A stretch of 26,013 nucleotides of DNA from a virus, in the IMG/VR virus record IMGVR_UViG_3300048433_000201, positions 1-26,013 of that record, one strand, 5' to 3'. Below, piece by piece: positions 139 to 25,917 of the stretch. A program made the position numbers and the translations under genes. The number at the start of each line of letters is the position of its first letter. The stretch's first letter is position 1. The notes below the pieces were generated by a model that saw only the letters and a list, made by a program, of their open reading frames with translations, was not told the origin of the DNA and ran no database searches.

Positions 139-627
139 TCATATTCTGTTTATTTTTTCTACAGCTAAGTATTCTTTATATGGCTGTAGATCATGCTCAG
201 TTATTAAACCATCATTTATTAATTCTTCACCTAGCTTACCATTGATATAAAATTCGCTTACTGGCTCACCACGCTTAATTCTGTTGGCGTTAATTACCTT
301 TGGATCAGGATACCAGGTTGCAGAAACACCAGAAGCTTCACTATCACTTGCAATGCTAACTTTAATCGCTGTGGCAATATCTGATGCTTTAGGCCATGAC
401 CTAGACATATGTGCAGCTTTTATTTTTAATTCAGCGCGTTCAAATGCTCCAGATATAACCTCTTGGTTACAATCATTAGGAAACAATTGATTTAATGCTT
501 TAGAAATAATCTCTATTTCTTTTGCTTTTACGTCTTCATCGTGGCGTAAGTGCATAGGAATAGAATAGCTACTTAATAAGTTTTCTAATTCTTTTTTAAT
601 TAAATTTATACGATAACCATAATTCAT
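139..627 (-). CDS. Putative helicase-loader-like replication protein
   Basis: A 162-residue soluble protein of uncertain function. Its ATG overlaps the stop codon of the initiator gene as TAATG (shared base 627), so the two are probably translationally coupled. The central stretch around residues 74-89 (HMSRSWPKASDIATAI) resembles a motif often found in small proteins encoded just after phage initiators, where lambda P or other helicase loaders sit. The acidic C-terminal half has no catalytic motif I recognise. The loader role is inferred from position and this weak resemblance. It is the last gene before the terminator at 27-54. Confidence 0.45.
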   Translation of the reverse strand: MNYGYRINLIKKELENLLSSYSIPMHLRHDEDVKAKEIEIISKALNQLFPNDCNQEVISGAFERAELKIKAAHMSRSWPKASDIATAIKVSIASDSEASGVSATWYPDPKVINANRIKRGEPVSEFYINGKLGEELINDGLITEHDLQPYKEYLAVEKINRI

Positions 628-1343
628 TAGTTTATACCTTTTTTAACTTCTAATATTCTTTCCATAGCCTTCTTATATTCTAAACTATCTTTACCAAAAA
701 GTGTACCAAAATACCAATCAGGTTCTATAGATTGCCAACCTTTTTCCTCACACATTGCCAAGGCATCTTCTGGCGTTCCACCACCAACAAAAATATATCT
801 TAACTTCTCAGCTAATCTTTTTGCTGCTGTTTCTGTAAGCTCTTTTTTAATTCCCTTGCGATATTTAATAAAACTATCTGCTGAATTTTCTTCTACTAAC
901 CACTCACATAAAATAGTCCTAACACTTATATAAGGTTTAATGGATGGTTCTAAGGATGGTTTGGGTGCATCTCCTGCAGGGGTAGGGGTGCATTTGCTGC
1001 GGGGGTAGGGGTGCATCTCCTGCAGGGGTGCAGCTATTGCATGGGGTTCTCTAGTGTTCTCAAGTGTTCCAATACGTTCTAGGTTAAGAGAATAGTCTAT
1101 AGTATATCCAGTTTTACATTTTTTCTGTCCAGCCTCAGTTAATAAACCTGAAGAAACCATATCTCTCATATTTGTTTGAAGCGTTCTAATAGCCATCTCC
1201 AAATCAGCAGCCATATTTTTTTTGCTAACCCAGATACCACTGCCATCATCACTAGCCTTGTCTGCCATATACATTAGGATTGCTTTTTGAGTAGTAGAAC
1301 CAATCCGTTTTGTTTGGACTAAATTACTTACTAAATTTGACAA
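627..1343 (-). CDS. Winged-helix replication initiator (lambda O-like) with intragenic origin
   Basis: A 238-residue protein if started at the TTG at 1343, which has an AAAAGGG ribosome site 7 bases upstream. An upstream TTG at 1370 is open but lacks a good site, and an in-frame TAA at 1377-1379 blocks further extension. Residues about 10-90 read as a winged helix-turn-helix: STTQKAILMYMADKA, a W near 38, a helix pair near 41-63 and GLLTEAG. This is typical of phage initiators such as lambda O and DnaD-like organisers. Residues about 104-127 are a low-complexity linker encoded by 23-bp iterons. The C-terminal part (KKELTETAAKRLAEKL, GW near 202-203, PDWYF) resembles phage replisome organiser tails. 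The probable role is to bind its own iterons and open the origin. Confidence 0.65.
   Translation of the reverse strand: MSNLVSNLVQTKRIGSTTQKAILMYMADKASDDGSGIWVSKKNMAADLEMAIRTLQTNMRDMVSSGLLTEAGQKKCKTGYTIDYSLNLERIGTLENTREPHAIAAPLQEMHPYPRSKCTPTPAGDAPKPSLEPSIKPYISVRTILCEWLVEENSADSFIKYRKGIKKELTETAAKRLAEKLRYIFVGGGTPEDALAMCEEKGWQSIEPDWYFGTLFGKDSLEYKKAMERILEVKKGIN
963..1033. repeat. Iteron array, probable replication origin
   Basis: Three near-identical 23-bp direct repeats begin at 963, 986 and 1009, each starting GGGTGCAT and containing a CTGC-G4 or G5 core. A fourth partial copy of GGGTGCA begins at 1026. Two of the units contain the palindrome CCTGCAGG. The period is not a multiple of three, so the repeat is read in changing frames by the initiator gene, which implies selection on the DNA. 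The array is GC-rich in AT-rich surroundings, and the side downstream in the gene (about 880-960) is AT-rich, as expected for an unwinding element. This matches the layout of lambda ori inside O. Confidence 0.7.
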
Positions 1344-1440
1344 TTTTTTTACCCTTTTCTTGTTGGGCAAGATCGTTTATGTTGACCTTGCATATTTCAT
1401 TGGTTTTGACATTATGCACAAAACGTACCTTTTTGGGAAG

Positions 1441-1730: not shown

Positions 1731-1979
1731 ATGGACAATAAATTTGGTCAAAAACATCCAAGCCCATCACAACTACGGCTATATATAACTAATGCAATTT
1801 TAGAACTTAAAGACAAAGAATTTTCTGAAAGAAATTATGGCGAACCAGCTAACTATACTTTTGGTGCAAAAGCTATCTCTGTCATAGAAAAAGCAATAAC
1901 AAAAGCTTGTAATGACTTTGATAAAGATGGGATTTTTGCTGGCATTAAGTCTGATAAGAAGGAGACAAAGGATGCCTAA
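1731..1979 (+). CDS. Small protein of unknown function, first gene of rightward operon
   Basis: An 82-residue, mostly helical, soluble protein. The ATG has an AAAGG ribosome site about 10 bases upstream and is the first start after the rightward promoter. The sequence contains SPSQLRLYITNAILELKDK and a short helix around VIEKAITKACNDFDKDG, but I recognise no family. Its end overlaps the start of the annealing protein by 8 bases, which suggests coupled translation and a role linked to recombination. It has no signal peptide or membrane segment. Confidence 0.7.
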   Translation: MDNKFGQKHPSPSQLRLYITNAILELKDKEFSERNYGEPANYTFGAKAISVIEKAITKACNDFDKDGIFAGIKSDKKETKDA

Positions 1980-2562
1980 ATTACCAGAAAAGCTAGTTAA
2001 ATTATTAGACGAAATAAACATCACACAACACAAAGCGGTATGGGATTGTCACGGCACTCCTGTAATGCTGCATAAAGCTTTAGAAAAAATAGCTGCACAT
2101 AAAAATATTATGTTTGATGCACCACAGATTATATCTTGTGATGTTGCCTCTAAAGAAGCTGTTATATGCGTTACAGGACACATGGAGAACGCTACAGAGT
2201 GGTCAATAGGTGAAGCTGCACCTTACAACAATAAAAACAGTTATCCGTTTGCTATGGCAGAAAAACGCGCCAAAGATCGTGTTATACTGAAACTTGTGGG
2301 CTTACATGGTGATGTATACTCAGAAGAAGAAGCAGACGATTTTAAAAACGCAAAGCCACAAGAGCAAGAATTTGCCGTTGCTAATATACAAGAAAAAGTG
2401 GATGCCTGGTTAGAGTTTTTTCAAACGTGTGGTTGGGATAAATTTAAAGCTAACCAAGCAAAATTTAAAAAATTTCTTAACAACCCCAATATCAATGAAG
2501 ATCAATATAACCAACTAATAGATGCAAGAGATAAATTAAATAAAGAATTTGGAGTGGAATAA
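1972..2562 (+). CDS. ERF/Rad52-like single-strand annealing recombinase
   Basis: A 196-residue protein. The ATG at 1972 is chosen over an earlier in-frame start because AAGGAGA lies just upstream and the earlier part overlaps the previous gene. The central segment (residues about 91-119: PFAMAEKRAKDRVILKLVGL, then YSEEEAD) is a signature shared by phage ERF/Rad52-type annealing proteins, which coat single-stranded DNA and pair complementary strands in phage recombination. The basic C-terminal region (about 140-196) may bind DNA or SSB. The next gene encodes SSB, the usual partner, with Ref and RusA nearby. The assignment rests on the motif and context, so the exact subfamily is open. Confidence 0.65.
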   Translation: MPKLPEKLVKLLDEINITQHKAVWDCHGTPVMLHKALEKIAAHKNIMFDAPQIISCDVASKEAVICVTGHMENATEWSIGEAAPYNNKNSYPFAMAEKRAKDRVILKLVGLHGDVYSEEEADDFKNAKPQEQEFAVANIQEKVDAWLEFFQTCGWDKFKANQAKFKKFLNNPNINEDQYNQLIDARDKLNKEFGVE

Positions 2563-2565
2563 TCA

Positions 2566-2925
2566 ATGAAACAGATTACAATCGCTGGGCGCGTAACAAA
2601 AAACGCAGAAGTAAAACAATTTGATACAAATAGTGTTGTTAACTTTTCTGTAGCTGTTGATGATGGCTACGGAGAAAACAAAAGTACACTATTTTTTGAC
2701 TGCGAATATTACAGAACAGGCATAGCAGATTATTTAGTAAAGGGTACGCCAGTTGTTGCTGTAGGTGAGCTAAAGACCAGGGAGTATAATGGAAAGACTT
2801 ATTTAAAAGTTAAAGTCCAAGATATTCAAATGATGGGTAAGGCTGCAAGTAGCAGTTATTCTACTACACAGCAAAATGATCAGACACAACCCAATCAAGG
2901 TATGGACGATGAAATCCCTTTCTAA
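2566..2925 (+). CDS. ssb: Single-stranded DNA-binding protein
   Basis: A 119-residue SSB with the OB-fold pattern: MKQITIAGRVTKNAEVK at the N-terminus, VVNFSVAVDDGYG in the second strand, FFDCEYYRTGIADYLVKGTPV in the middle, and GELKTREYNGKTYLKVKVQDI before the tail. The tail after residue 95 is Ser/Thr/Gln-rich and ends MDDEIPF, the classic acidic tip that recruits partner proteins. It probably protects single-stranded DNA at phage forks and loads the annealing protein encoded 3 bases upstream. It is shorter than E. coli SSB (178 residues), as many phage SSBs are. Confidence 0.92.
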   Translation: MKQITIAGRVTKNAEVKQFDTNSVVNFSVAVDDGYGENKSTLFFDCEYYRTGIADYLVKGTPVVAVGELKTREYNGKTYLKVKVQDIQMMGKAASSSYSTTQQNDQTQPNQGMDDEIPF

Positions 2926-3316
2926 AATTCAAGTATATTTAAAAGATGGTCAATTGCTGCCATGTACTCAGTTTGACGCAGAACAAATAGAAGAACACAA
3001 ACAAAGTCAGACGTTTGATTTAATAGCCACTGGTAAGCGATCTAACCCACATCACAGTTTGTATTGGGCAACATTAAACAACGTGTGTAAGGCTACAGGA
3101 AAGTGGCCTACACATAGACACTTACACGATGAACTTAAATGGGCTTGTGGTTATGTGCGTATGCGTTGGAATGGTCTAGCAAACTGTCATATGCGAATAA
3201 TTGATAGCATTAGCTTTGATGACATGGATCAAAAAGAATTTAATAAATACTTTGAAATGGCTATGGAAAAGTTGTCTGAGGCAATAGGCTATGACCCACT
3301 ACACCGTAACCCCTGA
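2909..3316 (+). CDS. DUF1367-like phage recombination-region protein
   Basis: A 135-residue protein starting at the ATG at 2909, with AAGG at 2897-2900, overlapping the end of ssb by 17 bases. An earlier in-frame ATG lies deeper inside ssb and has poorer spacing. The pattern GQLLPCTQFDAEQIEEHKQ, then KRSNPHHSLYWATLNNV, resembles DUF1367 proteins found in lambdoid and other phage recombination regions. Their biochemical role is not established. His and Trp residues are frequent but no metal-binding set is clear. The context between SSB and nuclease genes points to DNA metabolism. Confidence 0.55.
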   Translation: MKSLSKIQVYLKDGQLLPCTQFDAEQIEEHKQSQTFDLIATGKRSNPHHSLYWATLNNVCKATGKWPTHRHLHDELKWACGYVRMRWNGLANCHMRIIDSISFDDMDQKEFNKYFEMAMEKLSEAIGYDPLHRNP

Positions 3317-3740
3317 ACATCTAAAACGTGAATTAGAGCTTGCAGAATATTTATCTAAAAAATGGAATTGCTGCGTTCAACATCAGTATAAATACAGCAT
3401 TTATGATTGTGTTGCTCATAGAAACCATGAACCAAAAGCATTTGTAGAAATGAGGGTGGTTAATTATGCAGCCGATGATTTACCAGAAATAATGATACCA
3501 ATGTCTAAAATAATGGATGGTCAGCAACAAACTAATTTAACTAAGATACCATCTTTTTTTGTTGTGTATTGGTATAAATGTAAAACTGTTAAATTTGTTG
3601 ATGTAAATAATATAGAATGTATTCCAAAATTTAGAGTCACTAAAATGAATATGAACAGAACAAATAAACCTAAAGAAGTAGAGGTTGCGCGATTTGTTCC
3701 AAAAGAAGTTTTCACTTATGTAGGACAAAATAAGGCATGA
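3291..3740 (+). CDS. Unknown protein, possibly PD-(D/E)XK nuclease-like
   Basis: A 149-residue protein whose ATG lies 26 bases inside the previous gene, with GAGG upstream. The order SIYDCVAHRNHEPKAFVEMRVVNY (D near 39, E-x-R near 53-55), followed by a helix and then a hydrophobic strand (SFFVVYWY), recalls the core of PD-(D/E)XK enzymes with Lys replaced by Arg. This is a weak reading and activity cannot be assumed. The C-terminal part is rich in Lys/Arg and may bind DNA. The next gene starts within its stop codon (ATGA). Confidence 0.5.
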   Translation: MTHYTVTPEHLKRELELAEYLSKKWNCCVQHQYKYSIYDCVAHRNHEPKAFVEMRVVNYAADDLPEIMIPMSKIMDGQQQTNLTKIPSFFVVYWYKCKTVKFVDVNNIECIPKFRVTKMNMNRTNKPKEVEVARFVPKEVFTYVGQNKA

Positions 3741-4075
3741 CTAATTTAGCTGGACGCCCACCAACAGGGCAGAAAATAAAAGTAAAAAAGAAAGATAGTA
3801 AATATCTGCAAGCTATCAGGGAAATGCCTTGCTGCGTCTGTCAACGCTTTGGAGAGAGCCAAAACAGCCCTACAACAGCGCATCACCCAATACACGATAG
3901 ATTTAGCACTGGGAAACGTCCTGACAGCACTGCTATTCCGTTATGTGAGGGGCATCATCAAGGGCTTTGGGATCAGACTAAAATAGCTTTACATAAAGAA
4001 ACAAAGCTGTGGCGTGAAACTTATGGTGCTGATTATTCTTATTCACCAGGATTTGTCCAAGACACTGACATATAA
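3737..4075 (+). CDS. Ref-like HNH-type nuclease
   Basis: A 112-residue protein with a metal-finger arrangement: C32-C33-x-C35, the AHH pair at 48-50, C70, H73-H74 and H86, plus GKRPDSTAIPLCEGHHQG and WRETYGADY. This order matches the C-terminal domain of phage P1 Ref, a RecA-dependent HNH-superfamily DNA nuclease, and related phage proteins. The basic N-terminus (GQKIKVKKKD) corresponds to the disordered DNA-binding arm in Ref but is shorter. It overlaps the previous gene by ATGA and its last 37 bases are antisense to the end of the RusA gene. It may act on recombination intermediates made by the annealing protein. Confidence 0.75.
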   Translation: MTNLAGRPPTGQKIKVKKKDSKYLQAIREMPCCVCQRFGESQNSPTTAHHPIHDRFSTGKRPDSTAIPLCEGHHQGLWDQTKIALHKETKLWRETYGADYSYSPGFVQDTDI

Positions 4076-21186: not shown

Positions 21187-22716
21187 TTACGTTTTTACTA
21201 ATAATTCTGTCGCTGAGATAGCAGTCCCTGCCAGTACACTTGGCGTTGCAGCCGTTGTGCCTATCGTTCCATTTGTTTGTACGAAATATTGCTGTCCTGC
21301 GGTAAGGCCAGATTGCTCATCATTTACTGCACCAATAATATCTACAGTTGCACCCTTGGTGTCAGCTACAGCGCCACCTTTGGATATACCAATGTAGTTT
21401 TCTGAGGTGATGTTTGTGGAGGTGTAACCTGCTTGTACGGCAATAGCTTTTGCTGCGTTTGAATTATTTCCAAAAGGTATTACTACCTTACCAACATCAG
21501 GGGCAAAAGAAAGTAAGCCTATTCTTCTTGGTGCATCACTTCCGAAAGTAGTAGGATTTGTCTGAACCGCACCACTTGCTGCACCAGAAAAAGTTAAGGT
21601 TTCGCCATCAGCGTCTAAAGTTGCTGTATAAAGTTTTCCAACTTCTCCAGTTCCGTCTTCAGCGGCAATCACAAATACTTTACCTGTAGTGTCATAAATT
21701 ATGGTAGAGTCACTTGCGCCACTCCCACAATTATAGTTAGTATAAGCTGTAGACGCAGCAAAGGTTACACTTGTTCCAGAAACACTTCCTACAGAATACT
21801 TCCCAACATTAGATGCATTTGAAGCTCTGTAAATACAAATTACTTTGCCACTGTCAGGATCGTATGTAATTTTACAAGAATCGTCAGATGTATCTGCCCC
21901 TGCACTTGGTATTTCTGTTTCAGATCCAAAAGAAATAGATGTACCACTAACAGTTCCAACTATACCTTTCATTTTATTACTGTCATTTCTATCAAAAAAC
22001 GTAATAACTACCTTTCCATTCGCTGAATCAAAAGCCATAGCCATAGATTCAGGCCCATTACCTGTAGTATTTAAAAAGGTTGCATTGCTTCCAAAAGAAA
22101 TACTTGTGCCACTAACAGTTCCAACACATGCTTTACCTCTATTAGATGAACTAGAATCTTTAAAAGCAAATACACATTTATTGTTAGTAGAATCAAAAAC
22201 TGAAGACATAAAAGTTTTATTACCTGAATCTGGCATACTAGCTTTTGTACCAAAACTTATAGAATTATCTGAGGGGTCTACAGTACCAACTATTGCATCT
22301 CCTGAACCGCCTGAAGCATTGTTTTGTGAACTAAGAACAACCTTGTTATTACTACTGTCAAACAAAGCACTCATGTAATCGTTGTTACTACTAATACTTA
22401 CAACTGGAGTTCCAAAACTAAGAGAGTTATCTGAGCCAACAGTTCCTACTACAGCAGTTGGATAATCACTGTTATCATCATCTTTGTAATAAATCACAAC
22501 TCTGTTTGAATTAGTGTCGTAAGTTGAGGCTATATGGCCTGTAAGTGCTCCAGACTCATAGCTAGTTGCTGATCCAAGAGCTTCTGTAACACTCGTTTGA
22601 GCAACAACAGCCACAGTACCATCAGCATTAACCACCACTGGCTTACCGCTTGGCAATGTGCCACTGGCTACTGCTTTAAACTCACCACTTTCTTCAGCCC
22701 CTATACGCTTTAACAT
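21187..22716 (-). CDS. Seven-repeat predicted beta-propeller tail protein A
   Basis: A 509-residue protein with AAAGGG before its ATG. It has an N-cap (AVASGTLPSGKPVVVNADGT, about 15-34), seven repeats marked by Y/FD-x4-KVV at about 66, 119, 174, 229, 285, 341 and 404 (53-63 residue steps), and a C-cap (SENYIGISKGG to the end). Most repeats contain VGTVSGTSISFGS. Seven units of this size suggest a seven-bladed propeller. It is the most diverged of the three paralogues, with irregular last repeats and two Cys pairs. It is likely a receptor-binding or fibre component; the position beside tail genes supports this. Confidence 0.7.
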   Translation of the reverse strand: MLKRIGAEESGEFKAVASGTLPSGKPVVVNADGTVAVVAQTSVTEALGSATSYESGALTGHIASTYDTNSNRVVIYYKDDDNSDYPTAVVGTVGSDNSLSFGTPVVSISSNNDYMSALFDSSNNKVVLSSQNNASGGSGDAIVGTVDPSDNSISFGTKASMPDSGNKTFMSSVFDSTNNKCVFAFKDSSSSNRGKACVGTVSGTSISFGSNATFLNTTGNGPESMAMAFDSANGKVVITFFDRNDSNKMKGIVGTVSGTSISFGSETEIPSAGADTSDDSCKITYDPDSGKVICIYRASNASNVGKYSVGSVSGTSVTFAASTAYTNYNCGSGASDSTIIYDTTGKVFVIAAEDGTGEVGKLYTATLDADGETLTFSGAASGAVQTNPTTFGSDAPRRIGLLSFAPDVGKVVIPFGNNSNAAKAIAVQAGYTSTNITSENYIGISKGGAVADTKGATVDIIGAVNDEQSGLTAGQQYFVQTNGTIGTTAATPSVLAGTAISATELLVKT

Positions 22717-22718
22717 AG

Positions 22719-24182
22719 TTACCCTTTCACGATAAGTTTAGTTGCCGATACAGCCGTCCCTGCAAAAACGCTAGGACTAGCAGCCGTTGTACCTAGTGTG
22801 CCATCATTCTGAACGTAGTAGCTTTGCCCTGCTGTCAGCCCTGATAGGTTGTCGGCTATTGCACCCTGCGTATCTATGATAGCCCCTGCACCAGAAGCTG
22901 CACCGCTACGAGATATGCCTATGTAGTTTTCTGAGGTGAGGTTTTGTGCTGTTCCAGAGTTTTGAAAAACAACGGCTGTTCCATAATTAGAATTACCTCT
23001 GTCTTGAAAACCAATAACAATTTTATTGTTTGTACTATCAAAAGCAGGACTGTTGCCCCTGCTATCAGCAGCATTAAAAATTGTATCAGAGCCGACTGTA
23101 ATAGATGTACCACTTACTGTTAAAGGTACTATAGTGCCATTGTCTGAGTTAGGTGGATCAGTATATGCCGCAACCATTTTTTGAGCATTACTATCGTATT
23201 CTAACTCAATAAAATTTGTAGTAGCATTGTGGAATACAACCCTACTTCCAAAACTTATAGATGTACCACTAACTGTTCCTACCTTCGCTGCACCAACTTG
23301 TGAATTGTCATAATCAACATAAGCAACAACTACTTTCTGTGCAGAGCTATCATATGATATTTCCATTTTATCTACATAAGAACTTTGAAAAACAACAATT
23401 GAACCATAACTAACTGAAGTACCACTGACTGTCCCAACAATAGCTGTTCCATAGTTTGTTCCACCGTTTTGAAATACAACAACTAATCTATTTGCATTTG
23501 CATCATATGTAATCCTATTTCCTGCTGTTGCTTCGTCTATGTCAATAAGGTTTTGTGAACCAAAACTAATAGATGTTCCACTTATTGTACCCATTTTGAC
23601 GTAAGCACGATTTGACGCACCCCCATCCATATAAACTACAGCAACTTTTTGTGACGAACTATCGTATGTAATATCAATATGATTTACATCACCACTACTA
23701 AATATTGTTGTTGAACCAAAACTAATTGACGTACCACTTACTGTCCCGACAATTGCTTTACCTCTTTGTTGACCATCAGCTTGATCTCTATAAACCGCAA
23801 CAACTTTTTGTGCGTTTGCATCATAACCTGACCTTATATGTCTTGTTTCTGAGCTTTGAAAAACTACTGGTGTGCCGAAACTTATTGACATACCGCTAAC
23901 CGTTCCCACAACAGCCGTACCATACTCAGAGTTTCCTGAGTCACGATAAAATATAACTACTTTACCGCTTGCTACATCAAAAGTAGAGTGCATTTTTTCA
24001 TTAATAGCTGCTGATTCAAATACTGCTTCCGAACCAACTTGCTGCGATAAAGAGGTTTCAGCTACAACACTCACAGTACCATCAGAGTTCACAACAACAG
24101 GAGTACCATCCGTCAACGTACCACTGGCTACAGCGTGTTCCTGTCTTGGTAAATTCTGATCGTTGCCTATGACACGCAGCAT
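22719..24182 (-). CDS. Seven-repeat predicted beta-propeller tail protein B
   Basis: A 487-residue paralogue of its neighbours with GGAG about 10 bases before its ATG. Repeats start at about 68, 120, 173, 226, 277, 329 and 381, a very even 51-53 residue step, each with Y/FD-x4-K-x-V, a Y-x-D or F-x-D turn and GTVSGTSISFGS. N-cap (AVASGTLTDGTPVVVNSDGT) and C-cap (LTSENYIGIS, then SGLTAGQSYYVQNDGTLGTT) match the other two copies. The conserved strands and Asp turns suggest a propeller with ligand sites on the loops. No enzymatic residues are evident. Confidence 0.7.
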   Translation of the reverse strand: MLRVIGNDQNLPRQEHAVASGTLTDGTPVVVNSDGTVSVVAETSLSQQVGSEAVFESAAINEKMHSTFDVASGKVVIFYRDSGNSEYGTAVVGTVSGMSISFGTPVVFQSSETRHIRSGYDANAQKVVAVYRDQADGQQRGKAIVGTVSGTSISFGSTTIFSSGDVNHIDITYDSSSQKVAVVYMDGGASNRAYVKMGTISGTSISFGSQNLIDIDEATAGNRITYDANANRLVVVFQNGGTNYGTAIVGTVSGTSVSYGSIVVFQSSYVDKMEISYDSSAQKVVVAYVDYDNSQVGAAKVGTVSGTSISFGSRVVFHNATTNFIELEYDSNAQKMVAAYTDPPNSDNGTIVPLTVSGTSITVGSDTIFNAADSRGNSPAFDSTNNKIVIGFQDRGNSNYGTAVVFQNSGTAQNLTSENYIGISRSGAASGAGAIIDTQGAIADNLSGLTAGQSYYVQNDGTLGTTAASPSVFAGTAVSATKLIVKG

Positions 24183-24187
24183 TATTT

Positions 24188-24451
24188 TTATTCTCCGTCA
24201 TCCGCATCTGGATCTACCCAATCAGGATTAGCTGACCAGGTTGTGCCATCTAACTTATACTTGTTGCCTGTCCAATCATCGGGTGCGTTGGTCACGTTCT
24301 CAGTAATAGTCGTATTGCCACTGTTTAGATCAGCGATAATAAACTGAGCAGGATCACCTACTGTAATATTATCTGACGTTGCTGTGATTGCCACGTCATC
24401 TGCAAGGAGATACTTGCTTAACTTAGTTGATGTTTCCACGATAGTTTTCAT
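24188..24451 (-). CDS. Small fibre-associated protein
   Basis: An 87-residue protein with AAAGG, part of the end of the preceding gene, 7 bases before its ATG. It begins KTIVETSTKLSKYLLADDVA and continues VGDPAQFIIADLNSGNTTIT, then WTGNKYKLDGTTWSANPDWV. I associate this pattern with small proteins encoded among phage fibre genes, whose role is not known; a fibre subunit, cap or chaperone is possible. It interrupts the set of three propeller paralogues. Confidence 0.65.
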   Translation of the reverse strand: MKTIVETSTKLSKYLLADDVAITATSDNITVGDPAQFIIADLNSGNTTITENVTNAPDDWTGNKYKLDGTTWSANPDWVDPDADDGE

Positions 24452-24454
24452 TGT

Positions 24455-25903
24455 CTAACCTTTCACTATTAGTTCCGTAGCTGATATAGCAGTCCCTGCT
24501 GTTACTGAGGGGTCTGCTGCTGTTAATCCTAATGTGCCATCACCTTGCACAAAATATGTTTGCCCTGCGGTTAGACCGCTTTGGTTTCTGTCTATTGTAT
24601 TAGCTGTGTTTATTGCTGCACTTTGAGTGGTTGCAAACGCACCATCTGAAAAACCTATGAAGTTCTCTGAGGTGACGTTAGTTGAACCAATAGTAACTAC
24701 ACTAGAAGTACCGTAATCTGAGTTTCCTTCATCTCTATAGTTTACTATAATTTTATTACTGTTACTATCAAACGCTGCTGATATATGGTCAATTGCCGTA
24801 TCTGCAATAATAAAAGGTGTTTCAAACGAAACACTTGTGCCGCTTATAGTTGCAACAATTCCTGTGAGCTTGTTACTATTTCCTTTGTCCATGTATGAAA
24901 CAACAAACTTATTTGTGTTTGTATCATAAATAATTGTTATATCTTCAGAATCTGCTTGCTCAAAGACTACAATGCTTCCAAAGGTTATTGAGCCTCCAGA
25001 AACTGTACCGACTATTGCTTTACCATAACCAGAGTCATCTTCGTCTGAATATGCAATAAGGTGTTTTTGTAATGTGCTATTGTAAGCTATTGATAAATGG
25101 GTTGAATTGACATTACTAAAGTTAGTAGCATTAGCAAATGAAATAGAAGTACCACTTACAGTACCAATCATAGCGTAGCCTTTATTGCTATCTGAACTAT
25201 TTCTCCACACTACAACGGTTTTATTATTAGAAACATCATAAGAAGCTTTAATAAAATTTGCATTATGTGAAGCAAATACCACCTCTGAGCCAAAACTTAT
25301 ACTTGTTCCGCTAAGTGTACCTACTCTTCCTGTGCCATAATTTGAATTACCTTGATCTTTATAAATAAAAACAAGTTTATCAGAGCCGCTATCATAAATT
25401 ACATTATTATAAACGGTATTAGCAGAGTTTACTATATTGCCACTACCAAAAGATATTGACGTTCCAGATACAGTGCCTACCCATGCCGTTCCCTGATAAT
25501 ATCCAACACCACCCACATCCGACCCACCAAACACTATAACCTTGTTGTTTGTAGTGTCAAAAGCTGCGGTAAGGTGTGTTGTGTTGTTACTTTGGATAAC
25601 AACAGGAGTACCAAAACTAATAGATGTCCCCGATACCGTACCAACAGCAGCAGTGGCGTACTCATTGTTGCCTACATCTCTATAAGCAACAACAATTTTA
25701 TTGTTGCTAGAATCAAAAGTAGTACCAGTAAATTGTACAGCAGCAGATTCAAAAACAGAAGCAGACCCTGCGCTATCACTGCCTCCTGCAACAACACTCA
25801 CAGTTCCATCTGCATTTACAACTACAGCCGTGCCATCAGTCAGCGCACCAGAAGCTACTGCCCTAACCTGACCATCTTTAGCAATGTTACCAAAAGATTT
25901 CAT
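24455..25903 (-). CDS. Seven-repeat predicted beta-propeller tail protein C
   Basis: A 482-residue paralogue started at the ATG at 25903; a TTG just before it is less likely. The ribosome site is weak (GAAAG). Repeat starts lie at about 63, 115, 170, 222, 274, 326 and 378, six steps of 52-55 residues. N-cap (AVASGALTDGTAVVVNADGT) and C-cap (VTSENFIGFSDG, then SGLTAGQTYFVQGDGTLGLT) match the other two. The first of the three to be transcribed, it may be made in the largest amount. It is probably a tail or capsid surface component that contacts the host. Confidence 0.7.
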   Translation of the reverse strand: MKSFGNIAKDGQVRAVASGALTDGTAVVVNADGTVSVVAGGSDSAGSASVFESAAVQFTGTTFDSSNNKIVVAYRDVGNNEYATAAVGTVSGTSISFGTPVVIQSNNTTHLTAAFDTTNNKVIVFGGSDVGGVGYYQGTAWVGTVSGTSISFGSGNIVNSANTVYNNVIYDSGSDKLVFIYKDQGNSNYGTGRVGTLSGTSISFGSEVVFASHNANFIKASYDVSNNKTVVVWRNSSDSNKGYAMIGTVSGTSISFANATNFSNVNSTHLSIAYNSTLQKHLIAYSDEDDSGYGKAIVGTVSGGSITFGSIVVFEQADSEDITIIYDTNTNKFVVSYMDKGNSNKLTGIVATISGTSVSFETPFIIADTAIDHISAAFDSNSNKIIVNYRDEGNSDYGTSSVVTIGSTNVTSENFIGFSDGAFATTQSAAINTANTIDRNQSGLTAGQTYFVQGDGTLGLTAADPSVTAGTAISATELIVKG

Positions 25904-25917
25904 CAAACTACTTTCTA

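Follow-up and report, generated by a model that had tools for sequence, protein, structure and literature searches.

Among the described systems closest to the locus reported here is the replication origin of phage lambda, in which four iterons lie in the middle of gene O (NC_001416), after the part encoding the N-terminal DNA-binding domain, and are followed in gene direction by AT-richer DNA. The lambda iterons are reported to be imperfect inverted repeats of 19 bp to which O binds as a dimer, and the minimal unwinding unit consists of two iterons together with AT-rich DNA, whose single strands O also binds (PMC7466680). A further likeness, drawn from the literature only, is to RK2-type iteron plasmid origins with a repeat-type DUE, in which the iterons likewise adjoin repeated units of the opening region and in which both the sequence and the arrangement of the DUE 13-mers matter (PMC5043065); RK2 differs in its Rep family and in its 13-bp repeats. 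Here we analyze a window of 26,013 nucleotides, the whole of a 26-kb IMG/VR fragment (IMGVR_UViG_3300048433_000201) from a tailed phage with an SU10-type portal, and describe repeats that, judged by sequence comparison, are very probably part of the phage replication origin, carried within the gene for its own initiator. The layout resembles that of lambda in having four iterons mid-gene behind the DNA-binding domain, with DNA downstream only slightly raised in AT, and lambda iteron 1 (CCCTC-N5-GAGGG) has the same dyad geometry with a 5-bp gap; lambda differs in its initiator family (PF04492/TIGR01610 rather than HTH_36), in its half-site and in the absence of a second array of AACC units that we describe below.

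The initiator gene occupies 627..1370 on the minus strand and encodes 247 aa when read from the TTG at 1370; because the ATG of its relatives aligns with an internal TTG at about 1343, the latter is the likelier start, and the TTG at 1370 may be wrong. The product matches the 'replication initiation O-like' profile phrog_678 (E 1.6e-18, residues 27-219) and, in Pfam, only HTH_36 (24.7 bits, E 2e-5, 0.3 bits under the cut-off of 25), with no match to PF04492 or TIGR01610, both of which lambda O itself matches. On these profile matches we place it with the HTH_36/O-like phage initiators (phrog_678, 391 and 1032), outside the lambda O family. The AlphaFold2 model, with a mean pLDDT of only 62.8, comprises a winged-helix DNA-binding domain (1071..1337, minus strand; residues ~12-100, HHHH-EE, pLDDT mostly 62-85) and a helical C-terminal domain (636..887, minus; residues ~162-245), the latter a presumed partner in helicase loading, separated by a disordered linker (870..1052, minus; residues 107-167, pLDDT <50) whose coding segment contains both the iterons and the AACC array. 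Foldseek comparison of the model with the PDB returned winged helices only, all weak (E 0.02 or worse) and including the DnaD N-terminal domain (2v79), and a PDB sequence search gave no match.

The 162-aa ORF that immediately follows the initiator (139-627, minus strand), placed where lambda has P, matched no family in Pfam, PHROG or NCBIfam; by position, it is possibly a helicase loader. On the other side, a small HTH regulator (1450-1770, minus) diverges from a recombination block with SSB, NinB-like, PDDEXK and HNH genes (1731-4075, plus), with a probable control region at ~1650-1730. Farther along the window, at 21187-25906 (minus), are three genes of 483-509 aa rich in GTVSGTSISFGS-like repeats; they have no PHROG match and probably encode paralogous virion or fibre proteins.

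Read on the gene strand, each iteron consists of a dyad of 13 bp, YGCA-N5-TGCA, with CCC behind it, and four copies are present, all on the minus strand within the linker behind the winged-helix domain. In gene order these are iteron 1 at 1026..1041 (TGCA-ATAGC-TGCA-CCC; dyad TGCAATAGCTGCA at 1029-1041), iteron 2 at 1009..1024 (TGCA-GGAGA-TGCA-CCC; dyad TGCAGGAGATGCA at 1012-1024), iteron 3 at 986..1001 (CGCA-GCAAA-TGCA-CCC; dyad CGCAGCAAATGCA at 989-1001) and iteron 4 at 963..978 (TGCA-GGAGA-TGCA-CCC; dyad TGCAGGAGATGCA at 966-978), with dyad centres 17, 23 and 23 bp apart. A direct-repeat search found the same series at 958-1046 with spacings of 23, 23 and 17, and TRF reported a period of 23 with 2.9 copies at 963-1029. 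The preliminary description had counted three 23-bp units and a partial fourth ending at 1033; the 23-bp repeats are borne out, but the copy taken as partial contains the whole dyad, is missing just the CTACCC linker and reaches 1041.

To assess these repeats against the constraint of coding, we used synonymous-codon shuffles, which keep the encoded protein and its synonymous-codon pool unchanged. Four iterons arose in none of 5000 shuffles of the initiator gene (maximum 3), and the 23-bp self-match at the iterons (38/44) was never attained at any lag in 1000 shuffles, where the maximum was 32. No further YGCA-N5-TGCA-CCC site was found elsewhere in the 26-kb record. In a looser dinucleotide shuffle of the whole 26 kb, allowing one mismatch, the iteron count alone was not significant (14/100); the case rests on clustering within one gene and on conservation.

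Conservation points to the DNA rather than to the peptide, as the preliminary description had proposed. The iteron copies are read in different frames (PLQEMHP / PRSKCTP / PAGDAPK). Among 11 close relatives, only 2/44 half-site and CCC columns vary, and third-codon positions within them are variable in 0/16 cases, as opposed to 46% in the HTH-coding part, while 60% of the N5 spacer columns vary, with amino-acid changes. With third positions frozen and spacers free to change amino acids, the conserved thing is the iteron DNA. Furthermore, all 20 distinct same-HTH relatives examined carry four copies at this position, spaced 17/23/23 as in the window, retaining the half-sites while spacer DNA and linker peptide vary.

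The pattern can also be recovered without reference to protein. When 2.9 million viral contigs were scanned at the DNA level with TGCACCCN{1,14}GCANNNNNTGCACCC, at least 120 loci were obtained; 82/120 among the matches listed fall in an ORF with a related HTH, mostly just behind the HTH, whereas the 41 loci obtained with a scrambled pattern of equal composition include none (0/41) in such an ORF. Matches to the iteron pattern in genome contigs were set aside, as most are due to chance in so large a database. Dyads of the YGCA type also occur in isolated Pseudomonas and Aeromonas phages: Pseudomonas phages LESphi3, phi2 and Itty13 and Aeromonas phage 4_4512 have a related HTH and YGCA-N5-TGCACCC at the same linker position, but with 3-7 copies at 16-27 bp spacing, other C-termini and ~24-30% protein identity; the three Pseudomonas phages have the AACC array, and 4_4512 has one AACC there. 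In coliphage mEp460 (NC_019716), too, the initiator is of the HTH_36 kind; its dyads are TGCA-N5-TTCA, four AACC units come directly behind them, and the differences lie in copies ~24 bp apart, asymmetric half-sites and another C-terminus.

Where the HTH changes, the half-site changes with it. In L018-L024, whose HTH is ~60% identical and is joined to a different C-terminus, the sites are TGAA-N5-TTCA, a change mirrored in both half-sites as expected for a symmetric dimer; conversely, L025-L043 share the C-terminal domain (~60% identity) yet have another HTH, and with it another repeat. One of these, L041, carries TGCCCCACAGGGCA twice, spaced 22 bp, in place of the YGCA dyads. In L017, whose neighbours have CGCA-N5-TGCA at iteron 3, this site is CGCA-N5-TGCG, with both half-sites again altered in step. 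Half-sites across initiators include TGCA, CGCA, TGAA, TGAC, TCAA, GGCC, CGAC, GGAA and CGAA, and the dyad gap is nearly always 5 whatever the half-site. Such inverted-repeat iterons would suit an initiator dimer, itself putative, in that both dyads and dyad-preserving changes are found. In a set of 38 initiators identified solely by protein, 27 carry a dyad repeat unmatched by any codon shuffle, the dyad scan found no significant perfect-dyad repeat in the remaining 11, and 36 have either dyads or the AACC array. HTH identity correlates with half-site identity (Mantel r 0.39, 3/5000 permutations, without correction for phylogeny). A clean recognition-helix code, pairing Gln/Arg after RAV with C/A in the half-site, was considered and rejected, as L357 and L361 break it. 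Some initiators (L060, L062, L158) have a fuller palindrome, GGGTGCA-N5-TGCACCC, as their site, and a template-strand class (e.g., L053, L059, L128) has the site in the opposite orientation; in both, the AACC array, where present, lies on the coding strand.

This second array had been missed by the preliminary description, which saw in the same place only an AT-rich stretch at 880-960. We find 50-bp windows of 68-74% AT in 831..960 (a flank assigned to neither strand), making it a moderately AT-rich candidate melting region; base content as evidence for melting was rejected, since these windows exceed the local value of ~65% by a z of only ~1 and other stretches equal them. The notable feature of this stretch is a series of AACC units at 958-961, 946-949 and 934-937 (array 934..961, minus strand), 12 bp apart and starting 4 nt after the last dyad. 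Class-wide, the units follow the consensus (G)AACC(A/G)TCAA, usually begin 4-5 nt behind the last dyad and recur every 10-12 bp. Across 48 initiator clusters with <60% HTH identity, the 60 nt behind the iterons hold 97 AACC against 40.5 +/- 5.0 in codon shuffles, and 50 neighbouring AACC pairs lie 10-12 bp apart against at most 6 in shuffles. The units shift reading frame in 39/54 genes, and where a unit codes for Glu-Pro, the Glu codon is GAA rather than GAG in a ratio of 79:1, compared with 484:595 elsewhere in the same ORFs. The coding strand of the array region is rich in A+C, and in 49/55 cases the region exceeds the remainder of its gene in AT content (51.6% vs 43.0% AT class-wide).

The array accompanies every iteron type. 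It is present in 35/38 protein-found initiators and in 94/115 non-redundant initiators, a set that includes array-seeded loci, as opposed to 5/115 codon-shuffled controls. A search with the array alone (GAACCNTCANNGAACCNTCANNGAACC) returned 53 contigs, of which 47 hold such initiators, 4 look like the same initiator gene cut at the contig end and 2 are unrelated. In whole genomes, the array occurs in Pseudomonadota and some Actinomycetota loci, and none was seen in 20 Bacillota loci. One Pseudomonadota-type prophage initiator with the array (L607/L236) lies in a contig titled Alistipes, a title that looks wrong because the phylum sample overlaps gammaproteobacterial genomes. Runs of at least three AACC were absent from the few gammaproteobacterial PF04492 loci, and the lambda O relatives from IMG/VR, all near-identical, were not used; lambda, having no array, offers no proof of a role for it. 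Initiators with an unrelated HTH (BcepMigl type) were considered as carriers, but have only weak ACCAGATA-like repeats. An open-access literature search of partial coverage found no description of the iteron or the array sequence.

Taken together, the comparisons show a cis-acting DNA array matched to the DNA-binding domain of the initiator and an adjoining phased array independent of that domain. With good confidence, though from comparative evidence, we read the locus as an origin inside its initiator gene that would work as in lambda with a different initiator family, the protein lying outside PF04492. The earlier proposal of a lambda-type origin thus stands as to principle in the comparative tests, and its order of iterons followed by locally AT-richer DNA matches the annotated iterons of NC_001416, but the protein is of the HTH_36/O-like kind and not lambda O proper. 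Winged-helix dimers would occupy the four 13-bp dyads, each subunit contacting one half-site, as the comparisons support, and the bound dimers may stack into an O-some-like complex whose wrapping would strain the DNA downstream of the last iteron. There the AACC(A/G)TCAA array, its units one helical turn apart, may be the element at which the DNA is opened and the helicase loaded. Either the initiator or a shared replication factor would hold it during the loading of DnaB, for which the C-terminal domain or a loader would be the route. The disordered linker would be what allows coding DNA to carry both sets of sites. GC skew of the fragment tracks gene direction and is uninformative on the origin.

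Several other explanations bear on the iterons. The dyads could be operators for transcription, through autoregulation by the initiator or through a repressor, with replication starting elsewhere; winged-helix proteins commonly repress via dyads, and the fold matches are mostly to transcription factors, yet the sites lie mid-gene between domains in every relative, not at a promoter, and are found together with the HTH of O-like replication proteins and an adjoining phased array, so that we consider this role unlikely. That the linker DNA, iterons and array together, is a homologous joint for the exchange of initiator domains between phages seems less likely still: N- and C-terminal domains have indeed recombined on either side of it, but a joint requires long identity, whereas here 4-mers are phased within variable sequence and the changes preserve the dyads. 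Least credible is that the repeats have no DNA function and simply follow from the proline-rich peptide (PxP, EPxxEP) of the linker. Prolines do abound there and the EPxxEP motif recurs; this reading is already contradicted by the synonymous shuffles, which never yield four iterons, by frozen third positions beside spacers free in amino acids, and by the frame shifts and GAA bias of the array.

Competing solely with the array step of the proposed mechanism is the idea that the AACC units are not a melting element and instead form, on one helix face, a duplex binding site for a factor of host or phage origin shared by the phages of Pseudomonadota and Actinomycetota. The 10-12 bp phasing fits duplex binding, and the distribution over these two phyla and in 0/20 Bacillota loci is in keeping with such a factor; moreover, AACC stays constant against changing iterons, HTHs and C-termini, none of which would need to read it specifically. 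Set against this, there is no candidate protein, and the array is located at the position of the lambda unwinding region and is mostly AT-richer than the rest of its gene, leaving duplex binding a doubtful but serious contender. That the HTH and the C-terminal domain, which is swapped between relatives, vary while AACC stays makes a common factor, or else some property of the DNA itself, the likelier basis of its conservation. Its putative role is that of an unwinding or helicase-loading element. We therefore propose, tentatively and at somewhat less than even confidence, that the AACC(A/G)TCAA array is an undescribed, broadly conserved module of tailed-phage origins, phased, read by one common reader (host or initiator core) and combined with any iteron set.

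These observations would make it possible to find the replication origins of many phages, uncultured as well as named, with no more than their sequence, and they show selection on DNA function within a protein-coding linker across many families. The natural pairs of DNA-binding domain and half-site are usable for working out recognition, and the reader of the shared second element could be sought in E. coli with coliphage mEp460. If the array is indeed such a module, phage origins would consist of a private part for recognition and a public part for opening and loading.
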